Assembly (NCBI GenBank): GCA_011524785.1
Contig: WTJQ01000649.1
Location: 1-9,390 of the forward strand
Direction: 5' to 3'
Length of the DNA: 9,390 bases
Source: Planctomycetota bacterium
Lineage (GTDB): Bacteria > Planctomycetota > UBA1135 > GCA-002686595
Within the stretch, counting starts at the first letter, position 1, and the number at the start of each line of letters is the position of its first letter. The position numbers and the translations under genes are program-made. Shown in pieces: positions 392-7,331 of the stretch. The notes under the pieces are model-generated. The model was not told the DNA's origin. It ran no database searches and saw only the letters and a list, made by a program, of their open reading frames with translations.

Positions 392-2293
392 TCAGGCGGT
401 CTTTCCGGTCTCCTGACCCGGCTCGTAGGGGCGGATCTCACCGCTCTTGAGCTTGCCCCAGTAGTCCTGGAAGGCGCTCTTCACCTTGCCGGACAGCAGG
501 ACGACCCCGAGGACGTTCGGGAAGGCCATGCCCAGGATCATCAGGTCGCCGAACTCGAGGACCTGCGTCGCCGTGATGATCGAGCCGAGGAACACGAAGA
601 CGAGGAACATCGCCTTGTAGAGCAGCGAGGCCCCGTCCCCGAACAGCCAGACGAAGCATCGCTCCCCGTAGTAGGACCACGAGATCATGGTCGAGAAGGC
701 GAAGAGCACGACGGCCACGCTGAGCACGTAGGGGAACCAGCTGATCTGGCTGCCGAACGCCGCGCTGGTCAGCCCGGCACCGTTGGCGCCCTCGAGGTAG
801 GGCGCGTAGAGCCCGTCCGCCGTGGCCGGGTCGTAGGCCCCGGTGATCACGATCACGAGGGCGGTCATCGTGCAGACGACGATCGTGTCGATGAACGGCT
901 CGAGCAGGGCCACGATGCCCTCGCGGACCGCGTAGGGGGTCTTGGCCGCCGAGTGCGCGATGGCTGCCGAACCCACGCCGGCCTCGTTCGAGAAGGCGGC
1001 GCGCTTGAAGCCCTGGATCAGGACGCCGGCGAGGCCACCCAGGCCGGCCGCGGGGGTGAAGGCACCGTCGATGATCTTCCCGAAGGCGTCGGGGACCGCA
1101 GAGGCGTTGCCGAGGATGACCCAGAGCGCGGCGAGCACGTAGATGCCGCACATGGTCGGGACGACCTTCTCCGCGACCTGCGCGATGCGCTTGAGGCCGC
1201 CGAGGATCACGCCTCCGACCAGCACGGTCATGATCAGGCCGTAGATCCAGCGGTTCTCGGCGAAGAACGGGACGGTCTCCTGCAGCGCGTTGAGCGACTG
1301 GTTGACCTGGAACGAGTTCCCGCCCGCGAACGAGCCGCCCACGCACAGGATGGCGAACATCACCGCGAGGAACTTGCCGAGGCCGCCCATGCCGCGCTCC
1401 TTGAGCCCGATCGACAGGTAGTACATGGCACCGCCCATGACGCTCCCGTCGGAGCGCTGCTGCCGGTACATCTGGCCCAGCGAGCACTCGGTGAACTTCG
1501 AGGCCATCCCGAGGAAGCCGGCCAGGATCATCCAGAGGGTCGCCCCGGGGCCGCCGATGCTGATCGCGATGGCGACGCCCGCGATGTTGCCGAGCCCGAC
1601 GGTTGCGCTCAGGGCCGCAGTCAGGGCCTGGAAGTGGCTGACCTCGCCGTGGTCGTTGGGGTCCGAGAACTTGCCCTGGGTGACCTGGATGGCGTGGCCG
1701 AAGGCGCGCAGCTGAACGAGACCCATGCGCACCGTGAAGAAGATCGCGCCCAGCACGAGCCAGAGCACGGCGAGGGGGACGCCGCCACGCACGATGCTCA
1801 AGGAGGGCGTCGCGTCCACGCCGTCCCCGGGGATCGTGAGGGTCAGGGCAGCCGTCTCGACCGGAACGCCCTCGGCAGCGGCCTCGACGAGGAAGGCGTC
1901 GACCGCGGCCTGGAGAGCGGCCGAGTCGTCGAGGGACGCCGCCAGCTCGGCGGAGTGGCTGGCCTCGAAGACCGGGTAGAAGAAGAACGACGCGATGACG
2001 CCGTTGACGCCGGCCATCGCGCGGTCGACCTGCTCCTGCCAGTCCTTGGGACCCTCCTTGGGCTTGGCGACCGAGACCGCCAGCTTGTCGACCCGGCTCC
2101 CGAGGTGCGCCGCGAGAGCCTCCTTCAGCGAGGCCGCCTGCGCGTCTGCAGGGTCGACGGCCGCGGCTGCCGTCGGAGCGCTCTCCGCGGGAGCCTGGTC
2201 GTCCTCCTGGGCGTGGACCGGGGCCGCTGCGGCCGTGAGGAGGAGGACAGCCGTCGCCAGCCAGGACGTCAGGTGGGGGGGGAGCAGACGCAT
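392..2293 (-). CDS. Alanine/glycine:cation symporter (AGCS family) with signal peptide and periplasmic insert
   Basis: Inner-membrane secondary transporter that takes up alanine or glycine, usually with sodium. The 633-residue protein carries AGCS hallmarks: VPLAVLWLVLGAIFFTVRMG (about 172-191), GEVSHFQALTAALSATVGLG (216-235) leading into NIAGV, NEAGVGSAAIAHSAA (436-450), and ISWSYYGERC (537-546). About ten hydrophobic helices are visible. The start chosen is ATG at 2293-2291 because it opens a clear signal peptide (MRLLPPHLTS, then a Leu/Ala core, cleavage likely after VHA at 28). The frame runs 87 codons further upstream, but that part overlaps the divergent peptidase gene and looks random. 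Compared with usual members (about 450-550 residues), this one adds a signal peptide and an Ala/Asp-rich linker (about 29-85). It also adds an insert at about 111-165, between a membrane-like segment (about 95-110) and the first strongly conserved helix. No Shine-Dalgarno sequence is seen. Family assignment is secure; the exact substrate is inferred. Confidence 0.93.
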   Translation of the reverse strand: MRLLPPHLTSWLATAVLLLTAAAAPVHAQEDDQAPAESAPTAAAAVDPADAQAASLKEALAAHLGSRVDKLAVSVAKPKEGPKDWQEQVDRAMAGVNGVIASFFFYPVFEASHSAELAASLDDSAALQAAVDAFLVEAAAEGVPVETAALTLTIPGDGVDATPSLSIVRGGVPLAVLWLVLGAIFFTVRMGLVQLRAFGHAIQVTQGKFSDPNDHGEVSHFQALTAALSATVGLGNIAGVAIAISIGGPGATLWMILAGFLGMASKFTECSLGQMYRQQRSDGSVMGGAMYYLSIGLKERGMGGLGKFLAVMFAILCVGGSFAGGNSFQVNQSLNALQETVPFFAENRWIYGLIMTVLVGGVILGGLKRIAQVAEKVVPTMCGIYVLAALWVILGNASAVPDAFGKIIDGAFTPAAGLGGLAGVLIQGFKRAAFSNEAGVGSAAIAHSAAKTPYAVREGIVALLEPFIDTIVVCTMTALVIVITGAYDPATADGLYAPYLEGANGAGLTSAAFGSQISWFPYVLSVAVVLFAFSTMISWSYYGERCFVWLFGDGASLLYKAMFLVFVFLGSIITATQVLEFGDLMILGMAFPNVLGVVLLSGKVKSAFQDYWGKLKSGEIRPYEPGQETGKTA

Positions 2294-2357
2294 GGGAAGG
2301 AGACTGTGCCAAAGCCCCGCACGAGGGAGCAAATCGGGCGCGTCGCGGACGCCTACA
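2294..2357. promoter_or_regulatory. Divergent intergenic region with probable promoters
   Basis: These 64 bp separate two divergent start codons and must hold or border both promoters, unless they lie inside the genes. On the plus strand TACAAT (2354-2359) resembles a -10 hexamer but overlaps the ATG at 2358, and no matching -35 is visible. On the minus strand, CACAGT about 10 nt upstream of the symporter ATG, with TTGCTC 18 bp before it, is a weak -10/-35 candidate. No strong operator palindrome is visible. Confidence 0.35.
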
Positions 2358-3677
2358 ATGCATGCGACCCGCACCCTCTCCGCCATGCTCCTCCTCGTCG
2401 CCCTCTGCGCATCCCAGGCCTCGCTCACCCAGGACCCCGGCGGTCTCGATCTCCAGGCCCTCGGCACCGAGATCGAGCGCGGCGTGGCCGCGGTCACCGG
2501 CCGTGCGTTCCGGAAGCCCGTCGCGATCGCGACGACCAACGCCGAGGAGTTCACCGCCTATGCGATCGGCAAGCTGGAGGAGGACGGTGGCGCCGAGCGC
2601 ATGGCCTCCGACGAGGTGATCGCCAAGCACCTGGGTCTGGTGGGCCGGGACGTCGACCTGCGCGCCCTCACCCTGGAGGTCCTGGCCGAGCAGGTGGGGG
2701 GCTTCTACGACCCGCCGACCGACTCGTTCCGCGTGGTCGAGGGGCTGAGCGCGGACCTCACGCGCGTGATCATGGCGCACGAGTTCACGCACGCCCTCGA
2801 CGACCAGCACTACGACCTGGACGGTCTCGACACCGCGCGCGAGGGATCGACGGACGCGCAGCTGGCGCTGCACGCTCTGGCGGAGGGCAGCGCCATGGAG
2901 GTGATGGAGCGCTGGATGATGGCGAACCTCGCCACGCTGGACATGGCGGCCGTGCAGGAGTCCCAGGCCTCGTTCTCCTCCGCGGCCCTGCAAGCAGCAC
3001 CCTCGTACGTCTGGAAGCCGCTGCTCGCCAGCTACATGGCGGGCCAGACCTTCCTCCGCAAGGTCGAGCGGCGGACCCTCCTCACGCCGCCGGCTTCCAT
3101 GGCCGACGTGGAGCGTGCCTGGTCCGCGCCGCCGCGCTCGATGGAGCAGGTGCTCCACCCGGCCAAGTACTGGGACCCGGAGCAGGTCGACGAGCCGACC
3201 GCGGTCAGCCTCCCCGACGCCTTGATCCCCGAGGGCTGGACCGCGCGTCGACGCGACACGCTCGGTGAGCTCCTCCTCGGGATCCTCGTCACCCCTCCGA
3301 AGGAGCGCAGCGGTCTCGAGGTCGACCCCATGAAGCTCATGAGCATGAGCTACACCCATCCGGCTGCTGCCGGCTGGGACGGGGACCAGGTGGTCCTCCT
3401 CCGCGGCCCGGACGGCGCGGCGGCCACCGTGCTGCTCACCGTCTGGGACACCGCGACGGACGCAGACGAGTTCGAGGCGAGCCTGGTCCCTGCTCTGGGG
3501 CCCGAGTTCGCCGGGGCCGTCGACCGCGCCGAGGACCGCGCCGATGCCCCGGCGCCCCTCGTTCGCGCAGGGCGGGCCGTCGCCCTCGTCCGCGGGGACG
3601 TCGCTCGGCTCGGGCTCGATCGGACCGCGCTGCGCGCCCACCTCGTCACCCTGGACCGCTCGCTCGGGGAGGAGTGA
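2358..3677 (+). CDS. Secreted HExxH metallopeptidase-like protein
   Basis: A 439-residue exported protein with a zinc-peptidase signature. The signal peptide is MHATRTLSAM followed by a Leu/Val core, with cleavage likely after ASQA (residue 22). The motif AHEFTHALDDQHYDL (140-154) gives H141, E142 and H145 as predicted zinc ligands and catalytic base. LAEGSA (174-179) supplies E176, a plausible third ligand of gluzincin type. Further blocks that look family-specific are a Pro-rich stretch ending SMEQVLHPAKY (261-271) and AAAGWDGDQVVLLRG (336-350). I know similar hypothetical proteins with HExxHALxDQ plus EQxLHPxKY blocks in bacteria and archaea, but no characterised member. It probably acts in the periplasm or outside the cell. 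ATG 2358 is preferred because it adds a positive charge before the hydrophobic core; ATG 2385 (Met10) is an alternative if TACAAT at 2354-2359 is a real -10. It is the first gene of an overlapping set, and its TGA overlaps the next GTG. Confidence 0.85.
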   Translation: MHATRTLSAMLLLVALCASQASLTQDPGGLDLQALGTEIERGVAAVTGRAFRKPVAIATTNAEEFTAYAIGKLEEDGGAERMASDEVIAKHLGLVGRDVDLRALTLEVLAEQVGGFYDPPTDSFRVVEGLSADLTRVIMAHEFTHALDDQHYDLDGLDTAREGSTDAQLALHALAEGSAMEVMERWMMANLATLDMAAVQESQASFSSAALQAAPSYVWKPLLASYMAGQTFLRKVERRTLLTPPASMADVERAWSAPPRSMEQVLHPAKYWDPEQVDEPTAVSLPDALIPEGWTARRRDTLGELLLGILVTPPKERSGLEVDPMKLMSMSYTHPAAAGWDGDQVVLLRGPDGAAATVLLTVWDTATDADEFEASLVPALGPEFAGAVDRAEDRADAPAPLVRAGRAVALVRGDVARLGLDRTALRAHLVTLDRSLGEE

Positions 3678-6232
3678 GGACGCGCGTGACTTCGGCTCCC
3701 CCCGTCCGCACCACGAGCGGCACCGAAACTCGGACCACGCCGCCCGCGGGCTCGGCGCCCTCCACCCTGATCCAGGGCGTCGCACTCCTCGCTGGGGGGC
3801 TGCTGACCGCCTGCGCCGCGACTGGTCCCAGCCGTGACCCGGGCCCGCTCCTCGGCCGGCGCCCCGCGTCGGCGCTGCCCGGTCCGCGCGCAGAGGTGGA
3901 CGGCGAGCACTACCTGCTGGAGCTCGAGCTCCTCCCGACCACGCGCTCCATCCGGGGCCGGACGACCCTGCGCGCGCGCGTGATCGCGCCCGCGCTCGAT
4001 GAGGTGCGGCTCGACCTGGTCGACCTCACCGTGGACGGGGTCGAGGACGAGGAGGGGCGCCCCCTCGCGTTCCGCACCGATGCGGAGGGCGTGGTGGTCA
4101 CGCTGGGCGAGACGCTGGGCCAGGGCGACCCCCTGGCCCTCGCGGTCGCCTATCACGGCGTGCCGAACCGGGGGCTCTGGTACGCGCCGGGACCGGATCC
4201 CGACCACTGCTTCACCCAGGGTGAGTGCGAGGACGCGAGGCGCTGGTTCCCCTGCATCGACCACCCGAGCGACCGCGCCACCAGCGAGCTCGTGGTCACC
4301 ATGCCGGCGACCTGGACCTCGGTCGCGGGGGGCGTCCGCCTGTCGCGCGAGCTCGAGGCCGGGCGCGCCGTCGAGCGCTGGGTCCACCACGCACCGCACC
4401 CCGCCTACCTCGAGACCCTCGTCGCGGGCGAGCTCGTGACCGTGGAGGACGAGGGGGAGGTCCCCATCCAGTACGTCGGACCCGTGCGCACCGCGCCTCT
4501 CCTCCAGCCGAGCCTCGAGGCCACCCCCGGGGTGCTCGCCTTCCTCGGCAAGCTGACCGGCCGGGCCTATCCCTACGCGAAGTACGCGACGTGCGCCGTG
4601 GACGGCTTCCCGTTCGGCGGGATGGAGAACACGAGCGCGACCACCATCACCACCGCGGCCCTGTGCGACCACCGTGGGCGCGTGGACGGAGGGCCCGAGG
4701 GCCTCGTCGTGCACGAGGCGGCCCACCAGTGGTTCGGCGACCTGCTGACCTGCGCCGACTGGGACGAGATCTGGCTCAACGAGGGCTTCGCGACCTACTG
4801 CACGCACCTGTGGTTCGAGGCGACGCGCGGGCGCGATGAGCTGCTGGTGCGCGCGCGGGGCCTGATGGCCGCGGCGGCCGCAGCGGAGCGCAGGGCCCTG
4901 CGGCCCATGGTCCACGACGTCTGCGTCGACCCCATGGATCTGTTCTTCTCCGGGCACGCCTATCAGGGGGGGGCCGCTCGGCTGCACCACCTGCGCTTCG
5001 TGCTGGGGGACGAGGCGTTCTTCCGAGGCGTGCGCAGCTACGTGGGCGCCTTCGAGAACCGCGCGGTCCACACGGAGGACCTGCGCGCGTGCCTCGAGCG
5101 AGCCTCGGGGCTCGACCTCGAGCAGCACTTCGATCAGTGGCTGCACGCGCCGGGCGTTCCTCGCTTCCGAGTCGACTGGAGCTGGGAGGACGGGACGCTG
5201 ACCGTTGCGCTCGCCCAGACCCAGCGCGCCGAGGGAGGCGTCCCGGGGGCCTTCGTGACGCCGGCCGAGCTGGAGTGGCGGACGAACGACGGCCTGCGCC
5301 GCGAGCGGATCGTCGTCGATCGCCGCCGCATGGAGGTCGAGCTGCCCTGCGCGGAGGAGCCCCTCTGGGTGCGGTTCGATCCCCACCGGTGGATCCCGTG
5401 TGAGCTCGAGGCGGAGGTGGACACCGAGACCGCCCTGCGGCTGGCTGCTGAGGCTCCCGACCCTGGGGGACGGCTCGACGGTCTCGCCCTGCTCGGCGCG
5501 CGGGTCGAGTCCATGGACGAGGGCTATCGCCGCGCGTGCCTCGACCTGGCGGCCCGGCGCCTGGCGGCGGATCCGGTGCGCGAGGTCCGCTCGGCGGCGG
5601 CGGCCCTGCTGGGGGGCGCGCGGACCGCAGGCGCGCGGGACCTCCTGAGGGCCAGTGCCCTGGAGCTCGACGATCCCGCGGTCCGGGCCGCGTGCCTGGA
5701 CGCGCTCCGCGCCTTCACCCCGGACACCGACCTCTTCGACCTCGCCCAGCGTGCGTTCCTCGCGGCCCCCTCCTGGGCCGTCTGCGGGGCGGCCCTGCGC
5801 CTCGGCGCCGCGGCCGACGCGGAGCGGGCGGGGAGCTGGTTCGAGGAGCTCTCGGCGGGGCCCGGGCTGCTGCAGGTGGACGGCCCGAGTGCGCCGCTCG
5901 CCCAGGCGCTCGCAGGCGCGTGCACCGACCTCTCGCCGGAGTGGGCCCGGAGGCTGCTCGATGCCTGGCTCCTGGAGGAGGGCACGCCGCCGCTGGCGCG
6001 GGTGGCGGCCCTGCAGACCTTGACGCCCCAGCTGTTCGGGGACCCTGCGCTTGTTCGGGCCGTGATCGCGCTGCTGGAGCACGACGATCCGCGCGTCACG
6101 CGGGCGGCGGTCCAGGCCCTGGCCTCCATCGGGACCGAGGCGGCCCTGGAGGCTCTCGCCTCCCACTACCCGGGCACTGCGTCTCCGCGCGAGCGCCGCG
6201 CGATCGAGGCCCTCTTCCCCTTCGCCGAGTGA
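3674..6232 (+). CDS. Lipoprotein M1-family aminopeptidase with C-terminal helical (HEAT-like) repeats
   Basis: An 852-residue zinc aminopeptidase predicted to remove N-terminal residues from peptides at the cell envelope. The M1 signature is complete. FPFGGMENTSATT (312-324) is the GxMEN substrate-anchoring loop. HEAAHQWFGDLL (347-358) with E370 in WLNEGFATY gives HExxH-X18-E: zinc ligands H347, H351 and E370, general base E348. Y430 in AYQGGAARLHHLR fits the transition-state tyrosine. LLTAC (43-47) is a lipobox, so Cys47 is probably lipidated; the roughly 30-residue n-region before the hydrophobic core is unusually long. After the catalytic part, about 590-852 is Ala/Leu-rich paired helices resembling HEAT repeats (for example DPRVTRAAVQALASIGTEAA) in place of the usual C-terminal domain. 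GTG 3674 overlaps the preceding stop as GTGA. GTG 3686 is a real alternative, with GAGGA 5 nt upstream, and keeps the signal peptide. Confidence 0.93.
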   Translation: MRTRVTSAPPVRTTSGTETRTTPPAGSAPSTLIQGVALLAGGLLTACAATGPSRDPGPLLGRRPASALPGPRAEVDGEHYLLELELLPTTRSIRGRTTLRARVIAPALDEVRLDLVDLTVDGVEDEEGRPLAFRTDAEGVVVTLGETLGQGDPLALAVAYHGVPNRGLWYAPGPDPDHCFTQGECEDARRWFPCIDHPSDRATSELVVTMPATWTSVAGGVRLSRELEAGRAVERWVHHAPHPAYLETLVAGELVTVEDEGEVPIQYVGPVRTAPLLQPSLEATPGVLAFLGKLTGRAYPYAKYATCAVDGFPFGGMENTSATTITTAALCDHRGRVDGGPEGLVVHEAAHQWFGDLLTCADWDEIWLNEGFATYCTHLWFEATRGRDELLVRARGLMAAAAAAERRALRPMVHDVCVDPMDLFFSGHAYQGGAARLHHLRFVLGDEAFFRGVRSYVGAFENRAVHTEDLRACLERASGLDLEQHFDQWLHAPGVPRFRVDWSWEDGTLTVALAQTQRAEGGVPGAFVTPAELEWRTNDGLRRERIVVDRRRMEVELPCAEEPLWVRFDPHRWIPCELEAEVDTETALRLAAEAPDPGGRLDGLALLGARVESMDEGYRRACLDLAARRLAADPVREVRSAAAALLGGARTAGARDLLRASALELDDPAVRAACLDALRAFTPDTDLFDLAQRAFLAAPSWAVCGAALRLGAAADAERAGSWFEELSAGPGLLQVDGPSAPLAQALAGACTDLSPEWARRLLDAWLLEEGTPPLARVAALQTLTPQLFGDPALVRAVIALLEHDDPRVTRAAVQALASIGTEAALEALASHYPGTASPRERRAIEALFPFAE

Positions 6233-6708
6233 CGACCGCGCCCCCGTCGGCGGCCGCACTCCCCGAGGAGGCACGCCAGGCGCTCGTGCGCGAGCTCCAT
6301 CTCGCCCTGCTCTCGGAGGTCGGGGCGCGCTCCGTCTGCGACCACCTGCGGCGCAGGGTGCGCGATGCCGCCCTCGATGCGGTCCTCGCCCGGGTGAACG
6401 AGGAGGGAGCCACGGTCGTGGAGGAGGTGCAGGGACTGCTGCGGACCCTGGGGGCCGCGCCAAGGCGGACCAGCCTTCGCCGCCGCGTCCTGGCACGCCT
6501 CCTCGCCTCCTCGGCCCGTGTGCTGGGGCCTGCTCCGGTCGTCCGCATCGCCCAGGACGCCTCGGCCAAGGTCGCACGCTGGTACCTGCAGTACGCCTGG
6601 TTCCTGGCGGGGCACGGGGCCCTCGAGGAGGCCCGCACGTGCCAGCGCCTCGCAGCCACCAAGCGCCTGCACGCGGACTCCCTCGCGGCGTTCGTGCATC
6701 GCGTCTGA
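6229..6708 (+). CDS. Putative ferritin-like four-helix protein
   Basis: A 159-residue, almost wholly helical cytoplasmic protein. The GTG start at 6229 overlaps the aminopeptidase stop as GTGA, the same junction as between the two preceding genes, and it starts just before recognisable helical sequence. Upstream codons in this frame lie inside the aminopeptidase gene and are rejected. Four amphipathic helices can be drawn: about 11-50, 51-75, 82-128 and 130-157. Acidic and His residues typical of ferritin-like folds occur (E30, E58/E59, E65/E66, D110, E133/E134, H148). The regular pairs of ExxH di-iron motifs are not evident, so metal binding is doubtful. The pattern, including ARWYLQYAWFLAGHG and KRLHADSL, resembles rubrerythrin-like or DUF-type bundle proteins. 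The gene is real on context and codon use; the fold is a moderate inference and the function unknown. It precedes the selenium peroxidase gene by 35 bp. Confidence 0.65.
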   Translation: MTTAPPSAAALPEEARQALVRELHLALLSEVGARSVCDHLRRRVRDAALDAVLARVNEEGATVVEEVQGLLRTLGAAPRRTSLRRRVLARLLASSARVLGPAPVVRIAQDASAKVARWYLQYAWFLAGHGALEEARTCQRLAATKRLHADSLAAFVHRV

Positions 6709-6743: not shown

Positions 6744-7331
6744 ATGACCTGGATCCGCACCGTCTCTCTCGAGGAGGCCACCGGGAGGCTGGCCCGCAGC
6801 TATCGCGCGGCCGTGGAGCGAGCAGGGCGCGTGTTCGGCATCGTGCGCGCCATGAGCCTGCACCCGCCCGTGCTCGACGCCTCGATGGGGCTCTACCGGG
6901 CCATCATGAAGGACGGTGCGGATGCGGAGGGCGACCTGGACCTGCGGCAGCGCGAGCTCCTCGCCACGGTCGTGAGCCGGGTCAACGACTGCCACTACTG
7001 AACGCTCTCCCATGGGGAGGACCTCCGTGTCGAGGTCCAGCGAGTGGGAGGAGCGGCCGAGGTCGCCGAGCAGGTGATGCAGGACTGGCAGGGGGCCGAC
7101 CTCGGGCCCGCCGACCGGGCGCTGTGCAGGTTCGCCGAGCAGCTGACGCGCACTCCCGGAGCGGTGCGGGAGGAGGACGTGGAGGAGCTGCGCGCCGCGG
7201 GGTTCAGCGACGTGGCCCTGCATCGCGCCGTGCAGGTGATCGGCTACTTCAACTACATCAATCGCGTCGCGGACGCGGTGCACGTCGAGCTCGAACCGGA
7301 GATGCCGGACTACCCGGACGGGAGCCGCTGA
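6744..7331 (+). CDS. AhpD/CMD-like peroxidase, predicted selenoprotein (CxxU active site)
   Basis: A 195-residue alkylhydroperoxidase AhpD-like protein (the group often labelled peroxidase-related enzyme), read through one in-frame TGA at 6999-7001. The first 85 residues (MTWIRTVSLEEATGRLARSY...VVSRVNDCHY) and the 109 after the TGA (TLSHGEDLRVEV...YPDGSR) are in the same frame. Together they make a normal-length family member. Homologues have NxCxYCxxxHGxxL here; the TGA replaces exactly the second Cys. Mycobacterium tuberculosis AhpD uses E118, C130, C133 and H137; E71, C83, residue 86 and H90 match that spacing exactly, so Sec86 would be the peroxidatic residue. A SECIS-like stem-loop starts 6 nt after the TGA. 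Expected role: thiol-dependent reduction of peroxides in the cytoplasm. The alternatives are a TGC/TGT-to-TGA mutation or sequencing error, but neither explains the SECIS-like fold. Sec machinery genes are not in this window. Confidence 0.85.
6999..7001 (+). other. In-frame TGA predicted to encode selenocysteine (Sec86)
   Basis: This is the only stop between ATG 6744 and TGA 7329-7331 in this frame. It sits in Asn-Asp-Cys-His-Tyr-TGA-Thr-Leu-Ser-His, where AhpD-family proteins carry the peroxidatic Cys of CxxC. A codon recoded as Sec fits both position and chemistry. Confidence 0.8.
7007..7050 (+). promoter_or_regulatory. Bacterial SECIS-like stem-loop
   Basis: The lower stem pairs 7007-7013 (CTCCCAT) with 7044-7050 (GTGGGAG): six Watson-Crick pairs and one G-U. 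A symmetric internal loop follows (7014-7018 and 7039-7043). The upper stem pairs 7019-7025 (GGACCTC) perfectly with 7032-7038 (GAGGTCC). The apical loop is CGTGTC (7026-7031), with G at position 2 followed by U. It begins 24 nt after the TGA, inside the range of the published bacterial SECIS model (roughly 16-37 nt, G in the first two loop bases). A rival small hairpin, CTCCC 7007-7011 with GGGAG 7015-7019, could replace the lower stem but leaves the upper hairpin with 6 bp. SelB would bind the upper hairpin. Confidence 0.7.

Follow-up and report, generated by a model that had tools for sequence, protein, structure and literature searches.

An AhpD-like gene of a Planctomycetota bacterium carries a predicted selenocysteine codon in a C-x-x-U motif

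A single TGA interrupts the AhpD-like frame

The window, that is the whole stretch of 9,390 nucleotides analyzed here, carries on its forward strand an AhpD-like gene (6744-7331) with one internal TGA (codon 86, 6999-7001). We predict that this codon is read as selenocysteine by means of the tRNA-Sec, SelA, SelB and SelD for which the same genome has genes, and that the product is likely an AhpD-like peroxidase or thiol reductase that depends on selenium; judging from the sequences compared below, this reading is very probably correct. The gene would thus be likely to provide a selenium-dependent antioxidant enzyme of a kind whose genes are often split by gene callers.

Such a split is seen in the window, where an upstream open reading frame (6744-7001) of 85 amino acids stops at the TGA and a 3' piece in the same frame is listed from a GTG codon (7044-7331). 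Translation of 6744-7331 with TGA as U gave 195 residues (MTWIRTV...VNDCHY-U-TLSHGEDL...PDGSR). Within this frame U86 is the sole internal stop codon, and codon 196 (7329-7331) is a TGA that serves as the ordinary terminal stop. With a cysteine placed at codon 86, the read-through frame matched the TIGR01926 model ('peroxidase-related enzyme') over positions 2-177 of 178 with a score of 131.6 bits, against a curated cut-off of 81.8 bits. This bears out the initial annotation, which had described one TGA splitting an otherwise continuous AhpD-like frame. Taken alone, the two halves scored 38.3 and 75.5 bits, both below the cut-off, and they matched consecutive parts of the model (positions 2-81 and 90-177 of 178). 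The read-through protein also passed the Pfam CMD model (PF02627; 33.2 bits for a cut-off of 23), and this TGA-containing form is the sole CMD-family match in its own genome, which is represented by 3.43 Mb in 652 contigs and is 79% complete.

The TGA falls on an active-site position

The TGA stands at the second position of a C-x-x-C motif (C83-H-Y-U86-xxx-H90). Glu71 (6954-6956), Cys83 (6990-6992), U86 and His90 (7011-7013) are separated by 12, 3 and 4 residues, exactly as are Glu118, Cys130, Cys133 and His137 of the proton relay of Mycobacterium tuberculosis AhpD (PMC3141380), so that the spacing claimed in the initial annotation holds. The relay layout is therefore satisfied by E71, C83, U86 (selenocysteine replacing cysteine) and H90, Glu71 and His90 being the predicted relay residues that flank the pair. 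The fifth place of the relay, His132 in M. tuberculosis AhpD, is occupied here by Tyr85; the available part of the same paper denies that His132 is absolutely conserved, and reports a different chain topology for the M. tuberculosis protein (PMC3141380). Pseudomonas aeruginosa PA0269 shares with both proteins the Glu, Cys, Cys, His spacing and has Tyr50 as the counterpart of our Tyr85 (PMC3141380). The difference with AhpD and PA0269 lies in the second cysteine, at the place where we predict selenocysteine.

Among proteins of solved structure, eight distinct sequences were matched. The two best, 6k40 (E 2.7e-25) and 2oyo (E 3.6e-23), display the same Glu, Cys, Cys, His layout but have a cysteine at the place of the TGA, as is the case in all three alignments shown. 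The initial annotation had located the TGA on the 'peroxidatic' cysteine of the motif. The location is correct, but the adjective is unproven, since both cysteines of AhpD are termed catalytic in the available part of the literature source with no roles assigned between them (PMC3141380). A related domain is described by NF041238 (AhpD_rel_CFYUT, 'alkylhydroperoxidase-related (seleno)protein'), which has the C-x-Y-U-T motif in common with our gene. The match to this model reached 77.5 bits, below its cut-off of 175 bits, and covered its C-terminal half (151-339 of 357), the N-terminal half being absent from the gene.

The TGA and the frame around it are conserved

We searched 61 genomes, namely that of the window and 60 relatives, and obtained a match at E 0.001 in 55 of them; a few, such as the sole match in genome G045, are remote and have no TGA. 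Forty-three loci were extracted (the window's own copy and 42 from relatives; L017-L046 and L053-L065), 42 of which belong to one family and one to another family of the same order. All 43 have a TGA in one and the same alignment column, together with invariant relay Glu, Cys and His residues, and none has another in-frame stop before its terminal stop, although one locus runs off its contig. Because the two halves fit consecutive parts of the family model and the TGA occupies this one column in every locus, the split is no chance effect. The nearest separate assembly with the same TGA is 81% identical, and recurrence of the codon in separate assemblies makes a base-call error very unlikely.

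To evaluate the coding constraint, we compared the window copy with the other loci by the Nei-Gojobori method. Upstream of the TGA, 41 of 42 pairs could be used and the median dN/dS was 0.32; downstream, all 42 could be used and the median was 0.41. For the closest relative the two values were 0.09 and 0.39. These figures are rough, as the pairs are partly saturated, and we left out any pair whose dN was zero or whose dS was undefined. The part downstream of the TGA is thus less constrained than the upstream part but is still under purifying selection. One could have assumed that a nonsense mutation or a sequencing error gave rise to the TGA in a decaying AhpD-like gene, a view that fits the interruption of the frame by a standard stop codon and the weaker constraint on the downstream half. 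It is nevertheless very improbable: the same TGA is found in all 43 loci, none of which has a second internal stop, selection persists downstream, and the RNA hairpin described below is kept. We have set this reading aside, and the statement of the initial annotation that the locus does not resemble a decayed gene stands. Two of the findings that it named as speaking against a selenoprotein, close homologues with many other disabling mutations and a genome devoid of selenocysteine machinery, were looked for and did not turn up.

A conserved hairpin follows the internal TGA

A predicted bacterial SECIS element could direct selenocysteine insertion at codon 86. Its apical hairpin lies on the forward strand at 7019-7038, at a distance of 24 nt from the TGA, and has the loop CGUGUC (7026-7031). 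The 62 nt starting from the internal TGA fold with -34.9 kcal/mol (z -3.80), and none of 200 shuffled sequences was as stable; the 62 nt from the terminal TGA fold no better than shuffles (z -0.48). According to a published bacterial SECIS model, the loop counts 3-9 nt with a G within its first two bases, the upper stem 4-16 bp, the distance from the UGA 16-37 nt and the energy is at most -7.5 kcal/mol (PMC13188914). The window hairpin lies within all of these limits, with a loop of 6 nt, a G at loop base 2, 7 bp, 24 nt and -8.9 kcal/mol (7020-7043).

Over the 43 loci, 92% of the cells for the seven hairpin pairs are formed, versus 18-54% at 40 other in-frame registers. All seven pairs are present in 22 loci, six in 19 and five in 2; at most three uninterrupted loop-closing pairs remain in 11 loci. 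When folded alone, the hairpin reaches -7.5 kcal/mol or lower in 36 loci and is less stable in the other 7, so that part of the relatives fall outside the limits of the model. Loop base 2 is a G in 42 loci, and the base that follows is G or U in all 42.

One pair is formed by position 3 of an invariant Asp codon and position 1 of a codon for Val, Ile, Met or Leu. It occurs as C-G in 20 loci, T-A in 11 and T-G in 2, never as C-A, and the 10 mismatches all involve Leu codons. Covariation at this single pair (Asp third base with Val/Ile first base) was the strongest of 208 comparable column pairs (p 4e-7, the next one 3e-5), with p values that ignore kinship among the loci and a hairpin register taken from the window's own fold. 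The loop also covers an Arg codon, which is CGT in 31 loci and CGG in 11, is replaced once by a Gln codon and is never CGC, while CGC makes up 386 of the 710 Arg codons in the remainder of these genes. This absence of CGC from the loop is unexplained by protein coding. Neither a search of the window against Rfam at the gathering threshold nor ARAGORN on the window gave a match.

The genome encodes the selenocysteine machinery

The initial annotation had suggested looking for the selenocysteine machinery elsewhere in the genome. All four components were found there with scores over their cut-offs: tRNA-Sec (72.8 bits, cut-off 47; called by ARAGORN as tRNA-SeC with anticodon tca), selA (463.7 bits), selB (366.5 bits when joined, cut-off 242.25) and selD (338.6 bits). 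The selD gene, too, contains an in-frame TGA, in the context CAG-U-AAK (contig C427, which also carries selA), and SelD proteins often have selenocysteine or cysteine at that place. We also detected nine AhpC-TSA-like matches in the genome, three of them with an in-frame TGA. On the basis of the TGA codons of selD and of these three matches, the organism probably uses selenocysteine in several proteins. In the three AhpC-TSA/thioredoxin-like loci (L085, L086 and L090, on contigs C16 and C591), the TGA opens a C-x-x-C-like motif (FWUGPC, YWUGPC and YWUVRC), and two of these loci lie on one contig beside further AhpC-TSA-like matches. From its sequence, this region is probably a cluster with further selenoproteins.

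A changed genetic code, in which the lineage would read TGA generally as an amino acid, could be evoked given that 5 of 77 database homologues have a Trp at the TGA place, as a code-4 call writes it, in what are protein records only. We consider its probability negligible and have set it aside, as TGA is the terminal stop of gene 6744-7331 and of 25 of the 43 loci (the others end with TAG in 13 cases and TAA in 4, one being off contig), and the full set of genes for selenocysteine insertion is present. Altogether, the conserved TGA, this machinery and the conserved hairpin make sequencing error, decay and general reassignment of TGA unlikely, and support decoding of codon 86 as selenocysteine.

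We then extended the search to a sample of the class. A tRNA-Sec match (E 1e-7) was obtained in 141 of 154 genomes, 139 of them over the cut-off, and an AhpD-like protein match at E 1e-20 in 119 of the 154, namely 112 of the 141 genomes with tRNA-Sec and 7 of the 13 without (tallied by eye). These last seven count against the selenocysteine reading, although six of them have selA over its cut-off. Among the matches listed, three rows lack the TGA, two being fragments located past the codon and the third a cysteine copy of 35% identity (genome G108).

Databases mostly hold half of the protein

The initial annotation had foreseen that such a gene would be misannotated, and this proved true of 77 database homologues: 47 begin just past the TGA position, five have Trp there and three Cys (according to the script's motif), and 22 are unclassed. 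As a consequence, the complete AhpD-like protein hardly shows up in the database searched, and it is easy to overlook both this enzyme and the lineage's likely dependence on selenium. One fragment of 109 residues (P0037), labeled as a hypothetical protein of Planctomycetes bacterium, is identical to the post-TGA part of the locus in a genome of the same genus (G001, L022). The five records with Trp at the selenocysteine place (P0003-P0006 and P0014), known as protein records only, read as a code-4 call (TGA=Trp) would write them.

One would also wonder whether the gene yields two separate functional products, with a stop at the TGA and a restart just downstream. The many records that list the downstream part as a protein of its own speak in favor of this, and so does an ATG found right after the TGA in some relatives. 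On the other hand, the split would separate Cys83 from the aligned catalytic residue and from His90, neither half reaches the TIGR01926 cut-off, and the codon after the TGA varies, being mostly ACC, ACG or another Thr codon. This possibility thus appears highly improbable and we did not retain it; a single read-through selenoprotein remains our interpretation.

Proposed function of the selenoprotein

We propose that SelB, loaded with Sec-tRNA-Sec, would bind the hairpin at 7019-7038 and decode the UGA at 6999-7001, and that the product would fold as a helical AhpD-like protein in which the Cys83/Sec86 pair is assisted by Glu71 and His90. The selenol could attack a peroxide or an oxidized partner protein, Cys83 could then close a selenenylsulfide, and the enzyme could be reset by a cellular thiol donor such as the lipoyl or thioredoxin system. 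Most likely, Sec86 is the reactive residue of a Cys-Sec redox pair that a thiol donor would reset after it has reduced a peroxide or an oxidized partner. A peroxidase or AhpC-reductase activity of the protein is predicted from its homologues.

A variant of the selenocysteine reading is that the main role of the protein is to reduce a peroxiredoxin, in the way that AhpD reduces AhpC, rather than to act itself as a peroxidase. AhpD has indeed been called an adaptor for AhpC, and PA0269 reduces H2O2 weakly (PMC3141380), and the genome contains the nine AhpC-TSA-like matches mentioned above, three of which have an in-frame TGA. Against this, no peroxiredoxin was found among the five window proteins scanned with Pfam. 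A Deinococcus radiodurans mutant of an AhpD-like protein shows raised sensitivity to H2O2, and the cysteines of its CxxC motif matter in complementation (review PMC8945050), a phenotype compatible with either role. We regard such an adaptor role as a real but tentative possibility.

Selenocysteine and cysteine forms across the phylum

AhpD-like selenoproteins with a CXXU motif were reported among the new families of the Sargasso Sea (27 sequences, COG2128; PMC1088965), in agreement with the initial annotation, which has such proteins predicted from marine metagenomes. The Global Ocean Sampling data comprise an AhpD-like 1 group with 299 Sec and 902 Cys sequences and an AhpD-like 2 group with 70 and 207, respectively (PMC2398784), and a 2026 review and catalogue has a row 'AhpD-like protein, TIGR01926, CxxU' (PMC13188914). 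Our gene shares with this published kind the family model TIGR01926, the C-x-x-U motif and a single selenocysteine; compared by the descriptions in the available parts of these sources, we saw no essential difference. Since the kind has been reported since 2005, gene 6744-7331 adds to a known family.

The less expected part is the extent to which selenocysteine prevails over cysteine. In a sample of the phylum, 102 of 294 genomes gave 124 matches, of which 119 contain an in-frame TGA and 5 do not (rows counted by eye); the 119 are matches with any in-frame TGA, the CxxU placement having been inspected for part of the rows. The five TGA-less matches are at most 43% identical. Selenocysteine is thus far above cysteine in this sample, in contrast to the 299 Sec to 902 Cys of the AhpD-like 1 group (PMC2398784). 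The literature searched, mostly without subscription papers and in part only, gave no account of this prevalence in the phylum. Twenty further places that we fetched have TGA at the CxxU place in 13 cases and Cys in 7, including the five TGA-less matches of the phylum sample. Of six loci from named genomes, five carry a more distant form of the gene with the TGA at the CxxU place, and the sixth, from Chloroflexota, has Cys. Acidobacteria-type loci with TGA (L047-L050 and L052) come from records titled Terriglobia, Candidatus Sulfotelmatobacter (twice), Acidobacteriales and Acidobacteria.

In a tree of 76 rows (61 Sec, 15 Cys), the labels require five changes, two of which are forced by well-supported branches. 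Since support is low at many forks and two of the Cys rows sit on very long branches, we draw no direction of Sec/Cys change from it. The Cys label of one row (P0068) is based solely on the whole-protein listing, its motif having been missed by the script. Another (P0002, 61% identical) groups among the Sec rows, and is either a true Cys form or one in which U was written as C in the record.

A hypothesis would be that in Planctomycetota this TIGR01926 AhpD-like protein is selenocysteine-first. Selenocysteine would be old and nearly fixed in close orthologues as well as in distant copies, with cysteine rare, and the hairpin within the coding sequence would have shaped synonymous codons and the choice between Val and Ile. 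We find the chances of this proposal evenly balanced. If it were true, peroxide defence in these bacteria would have a permanent need for selenium. The 119 TGA and 5 non-TGA matches of the phylum sample form a natural set to ask why selenocysteine is kept and which bases the SECIS needs.

Gene neighborhood

An M1 peptidase is present in the fetched stretch of 10 of 12 relatives, which, together with a small open reading frame just upstream (6229-6708, forward strand), suggests that gene order around the AhpD-like gene is partly conserved, without giving a functional clue. This small frame has no Pfam match, and its homologues lie beside the AhpD-like gene in 8 of the 12 relatives. A longer frame of 560 codons (1995-3677, forward strand), also without Pfam match, has homologues in 5 of the 12 fetched relatives; its start is probably further downstream, because it overlaps a symporter gene on the other strand.
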